From Capsulimonas corticalis (GTDB lineage Bacteria; Armatimonadota; Armatimonadia; Armatimonadales; Capsulimonadaceae), in NCBI RefSeq assembly GCF_003574315.2, contig NZ_AP025739.1, positions 6,448,001-6,512,000 of the forward strand: a stretch of DNA of 64,000 nt. Direction: 5' to 3'. Within the stretch, counting starts at the first letter, position 1. The number at the start of each line of letters is the position of its first letter. Shown in pieces: positions 25,069 to 39,124 of this stretch. The notes beneath the pieces were generated by a model. The model did not search any database. It was not told the origin of the DNA and was given only the letters and a program-made list of their open reading frames with translations. The position numbers and the translations under genes are program-made.

Positions 25069-25305
25069 TTAGGTATGACGCAATAACATCTCGCGGAATT
25101 TTCGACCTGGCGTATCCAGCGTCGCCGACCTCTCAAAAATGACCGTTGTTTCAAGATTCGAGGGGTCGAAACAGATTTCCTCCCACACCCGATCTCCGGG
25201 ATCACGCTCAGCACTAAACAACAAATCACTCAAAAGCACCAACATAAAGACGTTATTGCCGGTCCGCGAATCCAATATCGAAAAACAGGCAGATTCACCG
25301 GCCAT
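25069..25305 (-). CDS. Hypothetical protein, 78 aa
   Basis: The sequence MAGESACFSILDSRTGNNVF, then MLVLLSDLLFSAERDPGDRV and KFREMLLRHT, looks like a genuine soluble protein. The ATG has no good SD. The frame remains open upstream to about 25365, through a dispersed repeat, without a better start codon. It may therefore be a gene whose 5' end was replaced by the repeat at 25319-25368. No family is recognised. Confidence 0.45.
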   Translation of the reverse strand: MAGESACFSILDSRTGNNVFMLVLLSDLLFSAERDPGDRVWEEICFDPSNLETTVIFERSATLDTPGRKFREMLLRHT

Positions 25306-25318
25306 TCTCAGTGCGATT

Positions 25319-25368
25319 CCTGGTATAAGGTTAGATGGATCTTTCAGCCGTTCGCGGCTGAGGGATCC
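25319..25368 (+). repeat. Orphan copy of the GGTATAA leader element
   Basis: CCTGGTATAAGGTTAGATGG followed by ATCTTTCAGCCG and CGGCTGAGGGATCC. It matches the element in front of the first PAS kinase (29361-29410) at most positions and has the same small hairpin (CAGCCG/CGGCTG). No plus-strand gene follows it here. Confidence 0.6.
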
Positions 25369-25397
25369 CCACCCTCATTCGCCAACTCACTCCATGT

Positions 25398-29270: not shown

Positions 29271-29304
29271 ACATGTTAACGAAAGTGCGTTTTCGTTAAC
29301 ATGT
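29271..29304. promoter_or_regulatory. Perfect 14-bp inverted repeat upstream of PAS kinase 1
   Basis: ACATGTTAACGAAA and its exact complement TTTCGTTAACATGT enclose 6 nt. It lies about 150 bp upstream of the kinase start. It could be an operator. The core TTCGTTAA also occurs in the promoter of the XRE gene at 46917-46926. Confidence 0.5.
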
Positions 29305-29360
29305 TCTTTCTCGTCCGATCCAAGGAGCCAAAAAAGATCAGGTGGCATTCTTGGGGCGAA

Positions 29361-29410
29361 TCCAGGTATAAATTCTATGGATCTTACAGCCGACGCAGGC
29401 TGAAGGATAC
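29361..29410 (+). promoter_or_regulatory. GGTATAA leader element of PAS kinase 1
   Basis: TCCAGGTATAAATTCTATGG is followed by ATCTTACAGCCG and a short hairpin (CAGCC/GGCTG). It ends 45 bp before the ATG at 29455. Similar elements precede kinases 2 and 3, and a nearly identical orphan copy lies at 25319-25368. Confidence 0.55.
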
Positions 29411-29454
29411 AAATTCCCGCAAGTCGCGCAACAAACGCCGGATGTAGAGACGCA

Positions 29455-30804
29455 ATGACCGTTCCAAGCTCCGAGGATGAAGAGGATGGACTGGACGCCG
29501 CCAAGCGCGCGCTTGCCGAAAGCGAGCGGCGGTACCAGACGCTGTTTGAGACGATGGCGCAGGGCGTCGTCTACCAGGACAAAAATGGGCGCATTATTTC
29601 CGCCAACCCGGCGGCCGAACGGATGCTGGGAATGACGCTGGAGGTCATGCAGGGCCGCACGGCGACCGATCCCCGATGGCGCGCCGTCCGCGAAGACGGT
29701 TCACCATTTCCCGACGACGAGCGTCCCTCCGTCCGGGCGCTGCGAACGGGCAAGCCGGCGCTGGGCGTCATCACCGGCTTCTATCACCCCGAACTTAACG
29801 AGACGCGCTGGCTGCGCAACGACTCCACTCCCGAACTCGATCCCGTCGATGGCTCCCCGGTGCGCGTGTACTCCATTTTGGAGGACATTACCGACCGCCT
29901 CAAGGCCGAGAAGGCGGCGGCGGAGGCGTCACGCACCGTCGTCACCATTTTGGAAAACGTCACCGACGCCTTCTTCGCGCTGGACAAGGAATTCCGATAC
30001 ACCTACGTCAATCGGCGAGGCGAGGAGATCACGCACAAAACGCGCGAGGAGCTGCTGGGGCGCCGGGTGTGGGATGTCTACCCCGACCTGATTGGATCGG
30101 TCTTTTACCACCAGTACTATCGGGCCATGGCAGGCGACGGCCCGGTCACGTTTGAGGAGTTCTACGCCGGATCCCAAACCTGGTACCGCGCGCACGCCTA
30201 CGCCACCCCAGACGGACTGGCCGTCTACCTGCGCAATATCACCGCCGAGCGCCGGGCGGCGGAAGAGCGCGCCGCCACCGAGCAGCGGCAGCGCGAATTC
30301 ATGCGCGATGTCCTCGCCAGCGTCACCAACGGCAAGCTGCACCTGTGTTTCAGTGACGCCGATCTGCCCGGCCCATGTCCCGATTGCACCGGCGTGACGC
30401 TCACACCCACCGAAGGATTACGCGCGCTGCGCCTCACCGCCGACGAAGCCGCCGGCGCGCAGGGCTTCAGCGACGATCGCCGGCACGACCTGGTCACCGC
30501 CGTCAGCGAAGCCGGCATGAACGCCATCGTCCACGCCGGCGGCGGCGTCGCCTGCGTCCGCACCCTCCCCGATCACATCGTGCAGGTCTGGATCGTCGAC
30601 GAAGGCGCGGGCATCTCCGTCGAGAACCTGCCCCGGGCCACCCTCGAAAAAGGCTACACCACCGCTGGCACCCTCGGCCACGGCATGAAGATGATGCTCC
30701 GCTCCACCGACCGCGTTTACCTGCTCACCAGCCCCACCGGCACAACCGTCGTGCTCGAACAAGGCCCCAACTCCCAATCGCCGCTCCTGCAAAACGAATG
30801 GTGA
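29455..30804 (+). CDS. PAS-PAS-HATPase sensor kinase (RsbW-like), paralogue 1
   Basis: 449 residues. PAS 1 (about 22-148) contains RYQTLFETMAQGVVYQDKNG, and PAS 2 (about 160-272) contains ENVTDAFFALDKEFRYTYVN. After a linker (RQREFMRDVLASVTNGKLHL) comes a HATPase_c domain (about 325-440) with an N-box SEAGMNAIVHAGGG, a G1 box VDEGAGIS and a GTLGHGMKMM lid. There is no HisKA domain, so it belongs with RsbW/SpoIIAB-like serine kinases rather than histidine kinases. It is cytoplasmic. It probably phosphorylates an anti-sigma antagonist or binds a sigma factor in response to a PAS ligand. Two close paralogues follow at 32923 and 34396. Confidence 0.92.
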   Translation: MTVPSSEDEEDGLDAAKRALAESERRYQTLFETMAQGVVYQDKNGRIISANPAAERMLGMTLEVMQGRTATDPRWRAVREDGSPFPDDERPSVRALRTGKPALGVITGFYHPELNETRWLRNDSTPELDPVDGSPVRVYSILEDITDRLKAEKAAAEASRTVVTILENVTDAFFALDKEFRYTYVNRRGEEITHKTREELLGRRVWDVYPDLIGSVFYHQYYRAMAGDGPVTFEEFYAGSQTWYRAHAYATPDGLAVYLRNITAERRAAEERAATEQRQREFMRDVLASVTNGKLHLCFSDADLPGPCPDCTGVTLTPTEGLRALRLTADEAAGAQGFSDDRRHDLVTAVSEAGMNAIVHAGGGVACVRTLPDHIVQVWIVDEGAGISVENLPRATLEKGYTTAGTLGHGMKMMLRSTDRVYLLTSPTGTTVVLEQGPNSQSPLLQNEW

Positions 30805-30970
30805 GACGCCTCACTTCAACGTCCGCCCTCCGGCCCTTCGATCAGCGCCTCCGCCTGGCCCGCGTACTGGTCCAAGACACATTTCACGAACAGCAAAACA
30901 AGCACGTCATCTTTAATATTGCGAGACGTCCCTGCCGCCGCGAACCTCATCGCAGCTTGCCCAAAGCGAC

Positions 30971-31117
30971 CTACCCCGCGCCACTGTCGAACGTGACACG
31001 AAAGACGACATCGACCTCTGCGGCTTCCTCCGTCACAACGCCGTAATGGATAACCACAACGATCTCATTCCAGCGGCGGACGGCCAATATCTCCGTGAAG
31101 CAGTCGCCGATTCTCAT
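30971..31117 (-). CDS. Possible small protein or displaced tail of the upstream membrane protein
   Basis: A frame of 48 codons starting MRIGDCFTEILAVRRWNEIV with beta-strand-like composition (VVVIHYGVVTEEAAEVDVVF). It starts 11 bp after the end of 31128-31838 and stays open upstream of its Met in a different frame. The sequence looks more protein-like than the Arg-rich tail of the 31128-31838 product, so a frameshift between the two cannot be excluded. Confidence 0.3.
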   Translation of the reverse strand: MRIGDCFTEILAVRRWNEIVVVIHYGVVTEEAAEVDVVFRVTFDSGAG

Positions 31118-31127
31118 TTGCGCAATC

Positions 31128-31838
31128 TCACCGTTCGGAAAACACCCCGAGCGGCCGCCAGCGGCGGCCGCGCCAGTGGTTGCTGCGGCCACGGCGTGAG
31201 CGGAGAAAAGAATCCCAAAATATGAGCTGTAACAACAGCACAATGATGGCCGCTGGAACGATGAGCACGCCGTAGGAGAGATAACCAGCCAGGGCGAAGA
31301 TGATTCGCGAACGCGATGTCTCGGGCAGGCGCCGAAGCGCCCCATGGCTGGGATTATGCCGGCCTTCGCGGAGATAATCGCGCGGCGTCCCATGCGTGTC
31401 CAGCGCCCAAACGCCCGACGATTTCCCATCGTCGGATTGGCAGAGGATGTCTTGCCGCCCGTCGCCGTTCACATCGAGAAAGCTGAAGTAAACCGGATGC
31501 CGCCCCCCGAGATAGGCGACCGCCACGTTGCCGCGATAGAACGTGCAGCCCGCGCCGGCGTGACGTCCCTGGAAGAAATCGTACTCCAGCCGGTCGGCGG
31601 AAATCCCTACGCGCCGCGAATCGATCCCATGCGTATCCGGGCCGTCATCGTCCGTCTCGATGAAACGGAATTGGAACCATGGGTCAACTGCCCGAATCGC
31701 AAATCCGCCGAAGAGCGAAAACAAAAGTACAGCAGCGTTCAATGACAAAGACATGAGGCGGACGTACTTCCAAAAACGCAGTCGACTCGGTCCAGTTCTA
31801 TTGCTCGGATTGTCCCCCGATCGCACCTCGGCGCTCAT
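31128..31838 (-). CDS. Membrane protein with FG-GAP-like segment, 236 aa
   Basis: The ATG at 31836-31838 follows GGAGAAGGGG. TM1 is about residues 30-48 (LMSLSLNAAVLLFSLFGGFA) and TM2 about 180-205 (FALAGYLSYGVLIVPAAIIV). The exported loop between them contains YFSFLDVNGDGRQDILCQSD, a calcium-binding-like DxNxDGxxD segment as in FG-GAP/VCBS repeats. The tail is very Arg-rich and may come from a frameshift. It is convergent with kinase 1. No known function. Confidence 0.55.
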   Translation of the reverse strand: MSAEVRSGDNPSNRTGPSRLRFWKYVRLMSLSLNAAVLLFSLFGGFAIRAVDPWFQFRFIETDDDGPDTHGIDSRRVGISADRLEYDFFQGRHAGAGCTFYRGNVAVAYLGGRHPVYFSFLDVNGDGRQDILCQSDDGKSSGVWALDTHGTPRDYLREGRHNPSHGALRRLPETSRSRIIFALAGYLSYGVLIVPAAIIVLLLQLIFWDSFLRSRRGRSNHWRGRRWRPLGVFSER

Positions 31839-31911
31839 ATGTCCCCTTCTCCTACTTCGGCGACTTCGTGTACAAAGATAAACAACGTGGCGCGGCGCCC
31901 GCAGGTTTCGC

Positions 31912-31959
31912 CAATCCAAGCGCCCCGAGTTTCTTTCGAAACGCGGGGCGCTTGGATTG
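31912..31959. terminator. Long perfect inverted repeat after the secreted 202-aa gene
   Basis: Sixteen-base arms (31912-31927 and 31944-31959, CAATCCAAGCGCCCCG and its complement) around a 16-nt loop, 17 bp after the stop codon of the minus-strand gene. There is no T-run. It resembles the inverted repeat after the LamG gene. Confidence 0.6.
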
Positions 31960-31975
31960 TGTACAATCTCAGAAC

Positions 31976-32584
31976 TTACTGCACGGAGACGCTGTAGCTC
32001 AGCTCGCCGGAATAGCTGCCGCCGCCGGTGATTGCGCCGTAGTCCGTCAAGTGGCGGGTGATCGTTAGGGAGCCGCCGGGCGTGACGGGGACGGTGGAGA
32101 CGTGAGCCGCCGTCTTGCTGCCGCTCACGGTTTGCTGGGAAATGCCCCGCCCGGTGTAGTAGGTGGTGATAGGCGCATCGCCCAGGCCGTTGTCGGCGCT
32201 AGTCGTGCGTGTGGCTCCATACTGCGCGCCGCCGGCGGCGTAGGAGTATTCGGTGATTGTGACGCTGGCCGGCGCGGGGTCGCGCGCCAGATCGCCGTTG
32301 TTCGGGACCCACGCGATGGTCCCGGTATAGGAGACACTGCCTGTCAGACTGCCGCCGCCGCCGCCCGCGCCGATATCAAAGCTCATCGAGCTGGCCGTGT
32401 ACGATGGGCTGAGCGGCCCGCCGCCGCCGCTCCCCGTCGGATTGTACGTAAATCCGCCCGTCGGCGCGCCTGTCAAACCCCAGTGGCCCGCATAGGCCGG
32501 CTGAGAAATCAAAACGGGAGCCGCCGTGAATAGGACCGCTCCGAGAAAGAAGGACCGACCGCCAAGCATTTTGCTAACGTTCAT
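31976..32584 (-). CDS. Secreted Gly-rich hypothetical protein, 202 aa
   Basis: A signal peptide (MNVSKMLGGRSFFLGAVLFT AAPVLISQPAYA, cleavage after AYA) precedes a Gly/Ser/Thr-rich beta-type mature protein (GSGGGGPLSPSYTASSMSFD, SVSYTGTIAWVPNNGDLA). There are no Cys and no known domain. A small beta-sandwich surface protein is likely. It lies between PAS kinases 1 and 2 on the opposite strand. Its promoter faces that of kinase 2. Confidence 0.65.
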   Translation of the reverse strand: MNVSKMLGGRSFFLGAVLFTAAPVLISQPAYAGHWGLTGAPTGGFTYNPTGSGGGGPLSPSYTASSMSFDIGAGGGGGSLTGSVSYTGTIAWVPNNGDLARDPAPASVTITEYSYAAGGAQYGATRTTSADNGLGDAPITTYYTGRGISQQTVSGSKTAAHVSTVPVTPGGSLTITRHLTDYGAITGGGSYSGELSYSVSVQ

Positions 32585-32922
32585 AGATGTCGCCTCTCAA
32601 CGTAGATTGCGATTCGCAGCATTGAGAACCACGCTGCCCGCAGCCTATTATGTCACGCAAGTATACGTATACGCTACCCAGGATACAAGATTTTTGCAGC
32701 ATGCGATAACCATTGTGGCAATTGGTGAGTACGATCGGGGCAAAGAGCGAATTCGCCGGCGTTTCTGCATTCGCCGCAGGCGAGAATTGGCGCGGGGTTA
32801 CGGCTCCCAAATTACCGCTCGGAAGTATCCGGCGAAATCCGGGTATAAAGATTTGAGACATTCCCATCGGCGTCGATCGGGGACACGTCGTATCCAATCT
32901 TAAGCAGCCATACAAAGGATCG
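32585..32922. other. Divergent intergenic region between the secreted protein and PAS kinase 2
   Basis: 338 bp. It contains an AT-rich stretch near 32640-32700 that probably carries the promoter of the minus-strand gene, and the GGTATAA element of kinase 2 at 32838-32862. No convincing gene is seen. Confidence 0.4.
32838..32862 (+). promoter_or_regulatory. GGTATAA leader element of PAS kinase 2
   Basis: TCCGGGTATAAAGATTTGAG, about 80 bp before the ATG at 32923. It shares the core CC-GGTATAA with the other kinase leaders but lacks the full hairpin half. Confidence 0.45.
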
Positions 32923-34269
32923 ATGAACTTGTCGAACGCACAGGATGAAGCCGAGCGTCAGGACGCCGCGCAGGCGCTTTTGGAGAGCGAGCGCAGATAC
33001 CTGACCCTGTTCGAGACGATGGCTCATGGCGTCGTCTGGCAGGATCACGCCGGCCGAATCACATCGGTCAACGCCGCCGCCCAGCGCATGCTTGGAATGA
33101 CGCTGGAGCAGCTTCAAAACATGTCGAAGCTCGATCCCAGCCGGGCTGGCGTCCACGAGGACGGCTCCCCGTTTCGTGATGAAGATCGTCCTTCGATTCT
33201 AGCGCTTCAAACCGGGCGTCCGGTTCGGAACGTTCTCCTCGGCTTCCAGCATCCCACCCTGCCTGGAACCCGCTGGCTTCGCATCGACGCCACCCCAGAA
33301 CTCGATCCCGCCGGCGGACCGCCGCTGGGCGTCTACTCGGTCCTGGAGGATATTACCGACCGTGTGCGCGCCGAGCGTGAGGCGACGGAAGCGGCGCGCA
33401 CCGTAACCACCATTCTGGAGAATGTGACTGACGCCTTCTTCGCGATCAACAAAGAATGGCGCTATACCTATGTCAACCGGCGCGGCGAGGAAGTATCCGG
33501 ACACACCTCCGAGCAGCTCATCGGACGCAGTATTTGGGACATCTACCCAGATATCATCGACACGATGTTTGACGAGCAGTTCCACAACGTCATGAACGGG
33601 GGCGACCCGGTGACATTTGAAGCGCTCTACACGGCGTCGCAGACCTGGTATCGCGCGCACGTTTATCCGACACCCGACGGGATCGCCTTTTACCTGCGCA
33701 ATATCATGCACGAGCGCCGCGCCGCGGAGGAGCGTCAATCCGCCGAGATACGCCAGCGCGAGTTCATGCGGGATGTCCTCGCCAGCGTCACCAACGGCAA
33801 ACTGCGCCTTTGTTTCCGCGAAGCCGATCTGCCCGGCGCGCCGCCCCGCGCCGAGCGCATTACCCTGACACCGGAGCAAGGTCTGCGCCGCCTGCGCCAG
33901 GTCGCCGAAGAAGCCGCCCGCGCGGAGGGATTCGCCGACGAGCGCTGCCACGATCTGGTGACCGCCGCCAGCGAGGCGGGCATGAACGCCGTGGTCCACG
34001 CCGGCGGCGGCGCGGCGTACGTCGGCGTCCTCCCCGAAAAGATCGTGCAGATCTGGATCGTCGATGAAGGCCCCGGAATCTCGATGGAAAACCTTCCCCG
34101 CGCCGCGCTGCAAAAAGGCTACACGACCGCCGGAACTCTCGGCCACGGCATGAAGATGATGCTGCGCGCCGTTGACCGCGTCTTCCTCCGCACCAGTCCT
34201 AGCGGAGCCACCGTCGTCCTCGAACAAGAGCCAGTCCCCAAGCCCTCCCTCCTGCTCAACGATTGGTAA
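32923..34269 (+). CDS. PAS-PAS-HATPase sensor kinase (RsbW-like), paralogue 2
   Basis: 448 residues, colinear with paralogue 1 over the whole length. PAS 1 has RYLTLFETMAHGVVWQDHAG, and PAS 2 has NVTDAFFAINKEWRYTYVNR. HATPase_c has SEAGMNAVVHAGGGAAYV, VDEGPGIS and GTLGHGMKMM. The PAS domains differ more from paralogue 1 than the ATPase does, which suggests different signals but one type of output. There is no membrane segment. The gene is preceded by its own GGTATAA element, so it is probably transcribed separately. Confidence 0.92.
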   Translation: MNLSNAQDEAERQDAAQALLESERRYLTLFETMAHGVVWQDHAGRITSVNAAAQRMLGMTLEQLQNMSKLDPSRAGVHEDGSPFRDEDRPSILALQTGRPVRNVLLGFQHPTLPGTRWLRIDATPELDPAGGPPLGVYSVLEDITDRVRAEREATEAARTVTTILENVTDAFFAINKEWRYTYVNRRGEEVSGHTSEQLIGRSIWDIYPDIIDTMFDEQFHNVMNGGDPVTFEALYTASQTWYRAHVYPTPDGIAFYLRNIMHERRAAEERQSAEIRQREFMRDVLASVTNGKLRLCFREADLPGAPPRAERITLTPEQGLRRLRQVAEEAARAEGFADERCHDLVTAASEAGMNAVVHAGGGAAYVGVLPEKIVQIWIVDEGPGISMENLPRAALQKGYTTAGTLGHGMKMMLRAVDRVFLRTSPSGATVVLEQEPVPKPSLLLNDW

Positions 34270-34317
34270 AGCATCCGCTTTGCCATTCGTTGATGAACTG
34301 ATTACACGCGCGAGGAA

Positions 34318-34366
34318 ACCTGGTATAAATCCTGTGTAAGTTCTCAGCCGCCGGCTATTCTGACAT
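34318..34366 (+). promoter_or_regulatory. GGTATAA leader element of PAS kinase 3
   Basis: CCTGGTATAAATCCTGTGTA followed by TCTCAGCCGCCGGCT, again a GGTATAA core plus a small hairpin, ending 30 bp before the ATG at 34396. Confidence 0.5.
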
Positions 34367-34395
34367 TTCCGAACTTATATGAAGACGAGGGGTCG

Positions 34396-35757
34396 ATGAC
34401 CTTGCGGAAACCCGAGGACGAAAACTCTACCGAAGACAGTTCCCAGGATGCGATGCGAGCGCTGGAGGAGAGCAAGCGCAGATATCTGACGCTGTTCGAA
34501 ACGATGGCTCAGGGAGTCGTCTGGCAGGACAACACGGGGCGCGTGACCTCGGCCAACCCCGCCGCTGAGCGTATTCTGGGCTTCACGGAGGCGCAACTCA
34601 AGGCGAGGTCACCCGCGCTCGATCGCGCCAATTTCCCGCTGCGCGACGACGGCTCCCTGTACACCTATGAAGATCGCCCTACGATCAAGGCGCTCTATAC
34701 CGGCCAGCCCGTGCTGGGCGCGATCCTGGGATTTCCGCATCTCAAACTCGGCGAACTGCGCTGGATTCGCGTCGACGCGATTCCGGAGATCGACCCAAAC
34801 GGCGGCCCGCCGCTGGGCGTTTATACGGTCTTTGAAGACATCACCGATCGACGCCGCGCCCGCATGGAAGCGGCGGAGACGGCCCGCAAAGCCGTCACGA
34901 TTTTAGAGAACGTCACCGACGCCTTCTTCGCGCTGGACAAGGATTGGCGTTACACTTTTGTCAACGGGCGCGGCGTCGAGATGGCGGGCCGCGCCGCCCA
35001 GGAGCTCATCGGCCGATGCATCTGGGATATCTATCCGGACCTTGTCGGCACGGTGTTCGAAGCCCAGTACCAGAGCGTCATGAATGGCGGCGCTCCCGTC
35101 ACATTCGAGGCGTACTACGCCGCGTCCCAGGTCTGGTATCGCGTCCACGCCTATGGAACGGGCGACGGCGTCGCCTTTTACCTGCGTGACGTCACGGCCG
35201 AGCGGCGGACCCGAGAAGACAGCATCGCGGCGGCGCGGCGCCAGCGCGAATTCATGCGCGACGTGCTTTTCAGCGTCACCAACGGCAAGCTGATCCTCTG
35301 CCTGGAGGAGCGTGACCTGCCCGGCCCGCGTCCGGAATGCCCCGGCATCCTGCTCACCCAGACCGAAGGCCTGCGCGGGCTGCGCCGCGCCGCCGAGGAG
35401 GCCGCCCGTGCGGAGGGCTTCATTGACGACCGCTGCTTTGATCTGGTCACGGCGGTCAGCGAAGCCGGCATGAACGCCGTCGTCCACGCCGGCGGCGGCG
35501 TCGCTTTCGTCCGCACTCTCCCCAGCCAGATCGTACAAACGTGGATCATCGACGAAGGCCCCGGCATCTCCTTCGAGAACCTCCCCCGCGCCGCCCTCGA
35601 AAAAGGCTTCACCACCGCCGGCACCCTCGGCCATGGCATGAAGATGATGCTCCGCTCCACCGACCGCATCTTCCTGCGCACCACCCCAACCGGCGCCGTC
35701 GTCGTCCTCGAACAAGGCCCTCACGCCGAACCTTCCCTGCTCCTCAACGAGTGGTGA
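34396..35757 (+). CDS. PAS-PAS-HATPase sensor kinase (RsbW-like), paralogue 3
   Basis: 453 residues with the same order of domains as paralogues 1 and 2: PAS 1 (RYLTLFETMAQGVVWQDNTG), PAS 2 (NVTDAFFALDKDWRYTFVNG) and HATPase_c (SEAGMNAVVHAGGGVAFV, IDEGPGIS, GTLGHGMKMM). The gene is 126 bp from paralogue 2 and has its own leader element. The three genes are clearly products of tandem duplication. The likely activity is serine phosphorylation in a partner-switching circuit. The last residues (PSLLLNEW) are also conserved among the three. Confidence 0.92.
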   Translation: MTLRKPEDENSTEDSSQDAMRALEESKRRYLTLFETMAQGVVWQDNTGRVTSANPAAERILGFTEAQLKARSPALDRANFPLRDDGSLYTYEDRPTIKALYTGQPVLGAILGFPHLKLGELRWIRVDAIPEIDPNGGPPLGVYTVFEDITDRRRARMEAAETARKAVTILENVTDAFFALDKDWRYTFVNGRGVEMAGRAAQELIGRCIWDIYPDLVGTVFEAQYQSVMNGGAPVTFEAYYAASQVWYRVHAYGTGDGVAFYLRDVTAERRTREDSIAAARRQREFMRDVLFSVTNGKLILCLEERDLPGPRPECPGILLTQTEGLRGLRRAAEEAARAEGFIDDRCFDLVTAVSEAGMNAVVHAGGGVAFVRTLPSQIVQTWIIDEGPGISFENLPRAALEKGFTTAGTLGHGMKMMLRSTDRIFLRTTPTGAVVVLEQGPHAEPSLLLNEW

Positions 35758-36571: not shown

Positions 36572-37159
36572 TCAATGCAGTCGTGTGCTCTCATAAATTC
36601 GGGACGCGTGCAGGCGGCGGTCGGCGAGCGTGAAGAGTTCTTCGCGGTTTGCCGCGTCGTACGGAAAGATCGACAGGCCGACCGCCAGCATGTGCGGGAT
36701 ATTCTCCGGGTAACCCGCGCGGCGGTACTTGACGTAGGCGAGCGAGGCGCGGATCTGAGACAGGATGGCGCGGATATCCTTGAGGTCCCCGGGCGTCACG
36801 ACCGCAAATTCCTGGTCGCCATAACGGGCGACAATCGCCTCCGAGGATCCGCACGCGGCGATCGCCGAGGCGATCACGCGCATGACTTCGTCGCCCTGCG
36901 CCTCGCGGTTCGCGCGGCGGACCATCGGAAAGTCTTCCACCCCGATCAGCGCAAGCGACAACGGCGTGCGCTCGCGCTCGGACTTCGCGCATTCCTTGTC
37001 CATGCGCTCCTGGAAGACATCCGGATCCACCAGGCTCCGCAGCGCCCCATGACCCGATGTCAGCCAGAGCGGAACCGAGAAATCACCGTTTTCCGGCTCC
37101 GCCCGCAGCCCGTCATTTACTTTCGTGTTCTTCACTTCCATCTTCGTTTCCATTCTCAT
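36572..37159 (-). CDS. Degenerate GGDEF-domain protein
   Basis: 195 residues from the ATG at 37157-37159. Residues about 50-190 form a GGDEF fold (LVDPDVFQERMDKECAKSER, then SLALIGVEDFPMVRRANREA, then VMRVIASAIAACGSSEAIVA). The active-site motif is RYGDQEF where RYGGDEF is expected, so the loop that binds GTP is altered and cyclase activity is doubtful. It may act as a c-di-GMP or nucleotide sensor. The gene starts 15 bp after the chemotaxis receptor gene and is probably cotranscribed with it. Confidence 0.82.
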   Translation of the reverse strand: MRMETKMEVKNTKVNDGLRAEPENGDFSVPLWLTSGHGALRSLVDPDVFQERMDKECAKSERERTPLSLALIGVEDFPMVRRANREAQGDEVMRVIASAIAACGSSEAIVARYGDQEFAVVTPGDLKDIRAILSQIRASLAYVKYRRAGYPENIPHMLAVGLSIFPYDAANREELFTLADRRLHASRIYESTRLH

Positions 37160-37174
37160 TGACGAACCCATCCA

Positions 37175-39124
37175 TCACGCCGCCTTTAAGAGCGAGGCCG
37201 GCTCGGACGGCGTTTCTTCGGTGACAAACCGGCTTGCGGAGCATTTGAGATCGCCCGCGATCCCGGACAGTCTGACGGAGGACGTCACAAGCTGCTGCAC
37301 GGCCAGGCTCTGTTCGGTGATGGCGCTGGCGACGGTCTGCACGGACGCCGAGACCTCCTCGGCGGAGGCGGACATCTCTTCGGCGGCCGCGCTGCTTTGC
37401 TGGACGATAAACTCGACGTCGGAAATCGACTTCGAGACTTCCTGCGACGAGGCCAGCATCTCCTCGGCCGCCGCGCAGATGCTCTGGACTTGATCGTCCA
37501 CACGCGTCATTTCCACGCGGATCTTCGACAGCGCCGCCCCCGCGCCCTCGGCCAGCGCGCAGCCTTTGACAACTTCCTGAGAGCCGGTTTCCATGGCGCG
37601 CACCGCATCACCGGTATGAGACTGGACGCGCGCGATCAATTGGCCGATTTCATGCGTCGCCTGGCGCGACCGCATGGCGAGCTTGCGCACCTCGTCCGCG
37701 ACAACGGCGAAACCGCGTCCGGATTCCCCGGCCCGGGCCGCCTCGATTGCGGCGTTGAGCGCCAGCAGATTGGTCTGCTCGGCGATGTCTTCGATGGTCC
37801 CGACGATCTCGCCGATCTGCTTCGAGGCGTCGCCCAATTCCTGGATCACATGCGCGGATTCGCCGACGGCTTCACGGATGCGCTGCATCCCCACAATCGC
37901 TTCGCTCACCGCGCCGGCGCCTTCCGTGGCGGCGCTGTTCGCCTGAGCCGCCGACTGCGCGGTCGTCCCGGCGTCCCGCGCGACGGAGTTGACGGCCACG
38001 ACAAGATGCCGCACCAGATCCGCGCCCTGGCTGAGCGCCTCCGCCTGATTGGATGCACCCTGCGCTACTTCGCTGGCGCCGCGCGCCGACTGGTCGGTGG
38101 CGATGGCGACTTCCTGCATCGTATCGGCGATCTCACCGGATCCGGCGCGAATCTGTTCGGCCGAAGAAGCAAGGGTCGCCGAAGCCGACGAAACTTCGGA
38201 CGCGGTTGTCTGGATCGAACGAACCATCTCCCCCATCGTCGCCTGCGACGTGCGGAACGAAGCGATCGTCGCCTCAATCTGCCCCAGCATTCCATTGAAC
38301 GTCTGAGCCATCGCGCCAACCTCGTCGCGGGAGCGCGGCGAAAGCTTCTGCGTGTGGGACAGCACCGGAACCGTCAGGTCGCCGTTCTCCATGGCGTGGA
38401 CAGCCTTGCGCAGGCTGTCAATATCCACCGTCTCCAGGCTCGTCAGCCGTTCGGCGACATCCGCGATAGAGCGCGTGATCAGCCGCGTGATGTAAAACCC
38501 CAGAAATGAGGCAAACAGCAGGGCAAAGATAAGAGCGGCGCATACGGCTTTGCTGGCCGCTCGAAATGTCTGCTGAACCTCCCTTCCGTACCAGTCGCCG
38601 TGCGCGTGGTTCCACTCCAGCATCACATCCAAATTGTCCGTGAGCGCGTGAAACTGCGTGCGCATGGACCCGTTGAGCAGCGTCACGGCGTCCTTTTCCT
38701 CAAACCGGCGGCTCATCGGCATCAGCATGGCGTCATGCGCCCCGGTATACTCCCGCCACTCAGACTGGAGCGCCGTGAAGTTTTTCTGATCGACCGAATC
38801 GGTCGCGCTGGATCCATACTCCTGCATCGCCAGGTCGACTTCGGCCCGGCACTCCGTCATATCCCGTTCAAAGCCGGCGATGGCTTTGGGCGAGCTCTCA
38901 ATCGCGTGCTGGAACTCCAGTGTCCGCAGCCGACGCGCTCCCGCATTGATCCGAGCCAGCGCATGCAGTCCAACGACCGAATCGCCGATCGCCCTGTGCA
39001 TGGTCGCGTTCATTGTCCCCATGCGGTTGACGGCGGTGGCGCCGACCAGCGTGCAGAAGAGCAAGCATAAGCCAAATCCCAGCGCCAGCTTGCGCCCGAT
39101 CTTCAAATCCGTGAACCAGTTCAT
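37175..39124 (-). CDS. Methyl-accepting chemotaxis protein
   Basis: 649 residues. TM1 is about 12-32 ([20 protein letters not shown]). A periplasmic four-helix sensor domain follows (about 35-190), then TM2 at about 194-215 ([20 protein letters not shown]), a HAMP-like segment and a long coiled-coil signalling domain. The MCP hairpin tip is canonical ([37 protein letters not shown]). It senses a ligand in the envelope and controls CheA. No che genes lie in the window, so it is an orphan receptor. An SD (GGAGGTC) precedes the ATG. The GGDEF gene downstream forms an operon with it. Confidence 0.95.

Follow-up and report, generated by a model that had tools for sequence, protein, structure and literature searches.

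What kind of output do three related sensor genes of Capsulimonas corticalis (Armatimonadota) share, and do they form an array with different inputs and a common control? The genes, called A, B and C here, lie in a window of 64,000 nucleotides (the whole stretch of DNA analysed), which is positions 6448001-6512000 of a genome consisting of a single contig of 7.65 Mb. An earlier note had read them from the sequence alone as a tandem triplication of RsbW-like sensors, perhaps a new type of multi-input partner-switching system. Gene calls beyond the window were made with a simple caller on fetched genome stretches.

Three sensor genes with a shared layout

The three genes are as follows.

29455..30804, plus strand: gene A, PAS-PAS-RsbT-like ATPase sensor, 449 aa (open reading frame, Pfam, full-length relative in MAG RYN_270)
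32923..34269, plus strand: gene B, PAS-PAS-RsbT-like ATPase sensor, 448 aa (open reading frame, Pfam, 66% identity to C)
34396..35757, plus strand: gene C, PAS-PAS-RsbT-like ATPase sensor, 453 aa (open reading frame, Pfam, full-length model)

The lengths and the common direction agree with the three co-directional proteins of 448-453 residues described before. Each protein contains two PAS regions and a HATPase_c_2 domain (E 4e-9 to 4e-12; 37-46.5 bits, above the curated Pfam cut-off of 27.4). The Pfam scan found no HisKA domain in A, B or C, as the earlier note had said. The tandem triplication is less regular than was proposed: the three copies are colinear, but only B and C are strictly tandem. 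They are the sole adjacent pair (126 bp gap), and the 2.1 kb between A and B hold two minus-strand open reading frames (31128-31919 and 31976-32584). Further along the window, a GGDEF-family protein with a degenerate site (RYGDQEF) is encoded at 36572-37171 and adjoins a methyl-accepting chemotaxis protein gene (37175-39124).

Pairwise identity among the three proteins is 56-64% in PAS1, 63-66% in PAS2 and 75-79% in the ATPase. The contrast between a conserved ATPase and diverging PAS domains is thus real, although it is moderate, and the "nearly identical" ATPase of the earlier description was too strong. These values also bear on a simpler reading, in which A, B and C are recent, redundant duplicates that have input and output in common and are kept for dosage, and no multi-input array exists. 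The PAS-PAS layout and the leader common to all three would suit such copies; an overall identity of 64-66%, with the PAS domains diverging more than the ATPase, is a lot for them, and we regard this reading as quite unlikely.

A full-length relative with 59% identity to C was found in Capsulimonas sp. MAG RYN_270. This MAG, the other Capsulimonas genome that was searched, is 69% complete and yielded one full-length copy, which points, without certainty, to a local triplication. On balance, and as part of the preferred explanation judged as a whole, A, B and C would be local duplicates of one soluble sensory serine-kinase gene.

A serine-kinase-type module closest, within the genome, to RsbT

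The conserved C-terminal portion of about 165 residues (approximately 278-440 of C) defines an output module.

30277..30768, plus strand: output module of A, a helix-strand extension followed by a GHKL ATPase (32-module alignment)
33742..34233, plus strand: output module of B (32-module alignment)
35230..35721, plus strand: output module of C (32-module alignment; model; SpoIIAB/RsbW fold match)

Eleven positions are invariant across the 32 aligned modules, nearly all of them in or around the ATP site: the N-box E and N, DxGxG and the lid glycines. The same alignment revealed no conserved histidine beyond the ATP site. When the module profile was compared with the PDB, SpoIIAB and RsbW were the best sequence matches, and the same two proteins were the closest folds to the structural model of the module of C (mean pLDDT 90). 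In the full-length model of C, a single continuous helix (267-294) connects PAS2 to the ATPase, with no DHp bundle.

Comparison within the genome refines this placement. The module HMM gave 48 bits for RsbT, 47 bits for an RsbT-PP2C fusion and 59 bits for a further ATPase, all encoded in a stressosome-type operon, against 21-32 bits for four RsbW-type proteins of the same genome. A tree, in which the branches are long, makes the same split between RsbT-type and RsbW-type and places the module nearest the RsbT-type. The higher profile scores and the matching tree split indicate that "RsbT-like" fits better than "RsbW-like". Of the earlier assignment as RsbW-like instead of histidine kinases, the serine-kinase-type ATPase and the missing histidine-kinase core are retained, but the RsbW label is not, since RsbT-type proteins outscore the RsbW-type.

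One module behind many sensors

A search with C matched 63 places in the genome, and a genome-wide paralogue count, which had been suggested as a check, gave about 34 proteins that carry the module. Their inputs are PAS, GAF, REC, CHASE3 or membrane regions, and the idea of one output with different inputs is borne out at this scale. Among the 33 own-genome module proteins scanned, PAS occurs in at least 19, GAF in 13, REC in 5, DUF4118 in 3 and CHASE3 in 1; a SpoIIE phosphatase (PP2C) domain is fused to the module in 2. One module gene (L071, 8090-9421), which stands beside intact copies, ends at a TGA that directly follows the lid motif (GTLGHGIK) and is probably a pseudogene.

Some copies are linked to two-component signalling. 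A REC-bearing copy (519776-520750) is flanked by genes for a HisKA-REC hybrid kinase and a REC-TPR-LuxR regulator, and one relative (L145, 3477-5783) is a single PAS-HisKA-HATPase_c-REC-module chain. The earlier note had named HisKA-like or response-regulator partners in close homologues as evidence against its reading; such links exist in part, as the REC fusions in 5 of 33 copies and the L145 chain. They suggest that the module can sit downstream of phosphorelays, as a possible two-component target. These fusions, together with the neighbouring hybrid kinase, could also be taken to mean that A, B and C act as atypical histidine kinases or as members of a phosphorelay, with a phospho-acceptor located elsewhere. 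We consider this very improbable: A, B and C have no HisKA or DHp, the modules have no histidine conserved outside the ATP site, and in the L145 hybrid a full histidine kinase and REC precede the module, the order expected of an output. Judged from domain order, the fusions fit an output-domain role for a module that would not itself be a histidine kinase.

Partner-switching components and their linkage

The components expected of partner switching are present in the genome. It has 44 SpoIIE-type PP2C matches, 14 STAS matches, with STAS genes that bear a DS[ST/A]G site, and two SigB/F/G factors above the curated cut-off, one of which is encoded in an rsbV (LDSTGLG)-rsbW-sigB operon at 6859281-6860899. 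A stressosome-type operon at 495123-500382 (L059) encodes REC-PP2C, RsbR, RsbS, RsbT, an RsbT-PP2C fusion and a further protein, which starts with an RsbT-like ATPase.

A PP2C is fused to the module or lies within 500 bp in 9 of the 34 module genes, where 0.6 would be expected (2000 random placements, maximum 5). At 6968122-6972477, genes for a STAS protein (IDSAGLA), a REC-PAS-GAF-PP2C protein and a PAS-GAF-kinase (6971047-6972477) form a co-directional cluster, of which a near-identical copy is found at 3158982-3163341. The two clusters are copies of one evolutionary event. They are about 3.8 Mb apart (L068 4123-8478 and L070 6986-11341), and a transposase-like open reading frame adjoins the L070 copy.

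The linkage of STAS, kinase and PP2C seen at the two clusters is absent at A, B and C, beside which no STAS, PP2C or sigma gene was found. The proposal that STAS and sigma-factor partners could be found by co-occurrence applies to the genome, which has STAS, PP2C and SigB/F/G proteins, but not to the immediate surroundings of the three genes. PP2C linkage as a phylum-wide rule was rejected, as it was seen for 3 of 22 in relatives. In two relatives (L156, 3911-4270; L157, 3745-4104), a STAS gene and the start of the module gene share an ATGA overlap. These two belong to another family, and in their coupled STAS the phospho-site Ser is replaced by Gly (IDGAG).

The PP2C linkage also suits another mechanism, in which the module takes up RsbT's second role: its binding would switch a PP2C on or off, and phosphotransfer to STAS would be secondary or absent. 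RsbU is activated by RsbT via the RsbU linker (PMC12143880), RsbT-type ATPases outscore the RsbW-type in agreement with the tree, many module copies adjoin a PP2C or form one chain with it, and the STAS coupled in L156 and L157 is without the phospho-site Ser. However, the linked PP2C proteins own PAS, GAF or REC inputs and have no evident need of an activator, most module genes have no adjoining PP2C, and the tree branches are long. We judge this mechanism unlikely as the main role of the module, though it deserves more weight than dosage copies or histidine kinases.

Upstream elements

The following elements were mapped upstream of the sensor genes and nearby.

29340..29415, plus strand: leader of A, CCAGGTATAAA with a predicted 5' stem-loop; a similar leader precedes the RYN_270 relative's gene
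32817..32892, plus strand: leader of B, CCGGGTATAAA; stem-loop no better than shuffles
34297..34372, plus strand: leader of C, CCTGGTATAAA; stem-loop no better than shuffles
25297-25372: orphan leader copy, with no module gene after it
29275..29300, no strand assigned: palindrome GTTAACGAAA-N6-TTTCGTTAAC upstream of A, a possible operator and the only copy in the genome

GGTATAA was found at 29365, 32842 and 34322, which is 90, 81 and 74 bp before the ATG of A, B and C and matches the 74-90 bp reported; a fourth copy in the window is at 25322. The element is not specific to the sensor genes, as it stands before many unrelated ones. The intergenic sequence in front of 408 called genes (47.8 kb) contains it 19 times, a density of about 400 per Mb compared with about 11 per Mb in coding sequence, and upstream of genes TATAA is preceded by GG more often than by any other dinucleotide (19 of 65). 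GGTATAA is most simply, from its placement, an ordinary -10-like element of this genome. By eye, no SigB-type -35 was seen at the right spacing at the leaders of A, B and C.

The long leader of A, B and C consists of CCNGGTATAAA followed by a stem-loop region. A model of 76 positions (the -10-like element and the 5' stem-loop), built from the window copies and the RYN_270 copy, had only four matches in the genome, namely A, B, C and the orphan, all within 9 kb; the long leader also precedes the relative's gene in RYN_270. The stem-loop is clearly better than shuffles in A and the orphan, weakly so in RYN_270, and not in B or C. In the orphan it is a perfect 14-bp stem-loop of -24.4 kcal/mol that no shuffle equals, and this copy could be the driver of a small RNA or the remnant of a lost copy. 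An Rfam search of the window from 24 to 37 kb gave no matches, and CCNGGTATAA showed no clear enrichment genome-wide (46, compared with 37 for the reversed control). Because GGTATAA is general here and the long leader is confined to this locus, common control, as proposed for the sensor family, is not supported.

The palindrome GTTAACGAAA-N6-TTTCGTTAAC recurs in front of the RYN_270 gene (L085), in a similar position, which suggests that A is its positional counterpart. As to which copy is nearest to the RYN_270 gene, the module tree and the common palindrome disagree.

Distribution of the module

The module was detected in 67 of 291 Armatimonadota genomes at E<=1e-10, in many cases at about 1e-40 or better over the whole length. 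The full form was absent from 17 genomes of other phyla and archaea, where one partial match was without the N-terminal extension. Because these 17 genomes were picked by PAS similarity and Firmicutes were not among them, the module may well exist elsewhere. Among plasmids, tblastn with the module of C gave no match, and with the divergent L054 module it gave only partial ATPase matches.

A broader proposal, put forward tentatively, is that the extended module (RDVLxSVTxGKL helix-strand and ATPase) serves signalling in Armatimonadota as a general, hitherto undescribed output domain. It would be a serine-kinase counterpart to the histidine-kinase core, placed on PAS, GAF, REC and HisKA-REC inputs, and dozens of sensors would converge on a few STAS and sigma switches. 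The open-access literature search found no paper joining an Armatimonad term with "partner switching", a weak sign that the system is undescribed.

A proposed expanded partner-switching network

Our preferred explanation, to which the balance of the evidence inclines us, is that A, B and C are sensory serine kinases, three of about 34, of a greatly expanded partner-switching network. The two N-terminal PAS domains would sense a cytoplasmic cue, with inputs that may differ among A, B and C. The single signalling helix would pass this cue directly to the C-terminal RsbT/RsbW-superfamily GHKL ATPase, with no DHp phospho-acceptor in between. The ATPase would then phosphorylate a STAS-domain protein encoded elsewhere, and the opposing step would fall to a SpoIIE-type PP2C phosphatase, of which the genome has many. 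The presumed outcome is that a sigma switch of the SigB/F/G type, or a related target under STAS control, is tuned in its activity.

This explanation draws on the single helix without HisKA or DHp, the SpoIIAB/RsbW matches and the invariant ATP-site residues; on the excess PP2C linkage and the STAS/PP2C/kinase cluster with its copy; and on the DS[ST/A]G STAS genes, the rsbV-rsbW-sigB operon and the overlap of STAS and module genes in two relatives. Counting against it are the lack of partner neighbours at A, B and C, the single origin of the trio clusters, the low PP2C linkage in relatives and the L156/L157 STAS without a phospho-site Ser.

Partner switching in this genome would run on a scale that raises a real question of specificity and crosstalk if the roughly 34 kinases, together with the 44 phosphatase domains, have their targets among about 14 STAS proteins and two SigB/F/G factors. 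The REC-module and HisKA-REC-module proteins would, if the explanation is true, be clean cases of two-component signals turned into serine phosphorylation.

Comparison with known systems

RsbT is the nearest ATPase type in the genome and has the lid motif GYST-x-G-x-x-G-x-G in common with the module. RsbT is a free single domain, whereas the module is extended by a helix and strand and joined to PAS, GAF, REC or other inputs. RsbW and SpoIIAB are its best PDB matches in sequence and fold and have equal ATP-site motifs, but their profile scores are below those of the RsbT-type, the module has fused sensors, and no sigma gene lies beside A, B or C. With PAS sensor histidine kinases the proteins share PAS inputs, a signalling helix and a GHKL ATPase; unlike them, A, B and C lack both HisKA/DHp and a phospho-acceptor histidine.

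In SypE of Vibrio fischeri and Rv1364c of Mycobacterium, sensor or REC domains are joined to an RsbW-type kinase and a PP2C. PA3346 of Pseudomonas is a multidomain partner switch in which sensor/REC domains are likewise joined to an RsbW-type kinase and a PP2C (PMC8256260). The own-genome copies L058 and L078 are comparable in make-up to these three, but neither PP2C nor STAS is part of the chain in A, B and C, and the family has been multiplied here to about 34 members, most of them sensors with a kinase alone. Since known systems already join these parts, a "new type" of system claims too much; the family, which probably feeds stress-type sigma switches, is a large yet recognisable variant of known partner switching.
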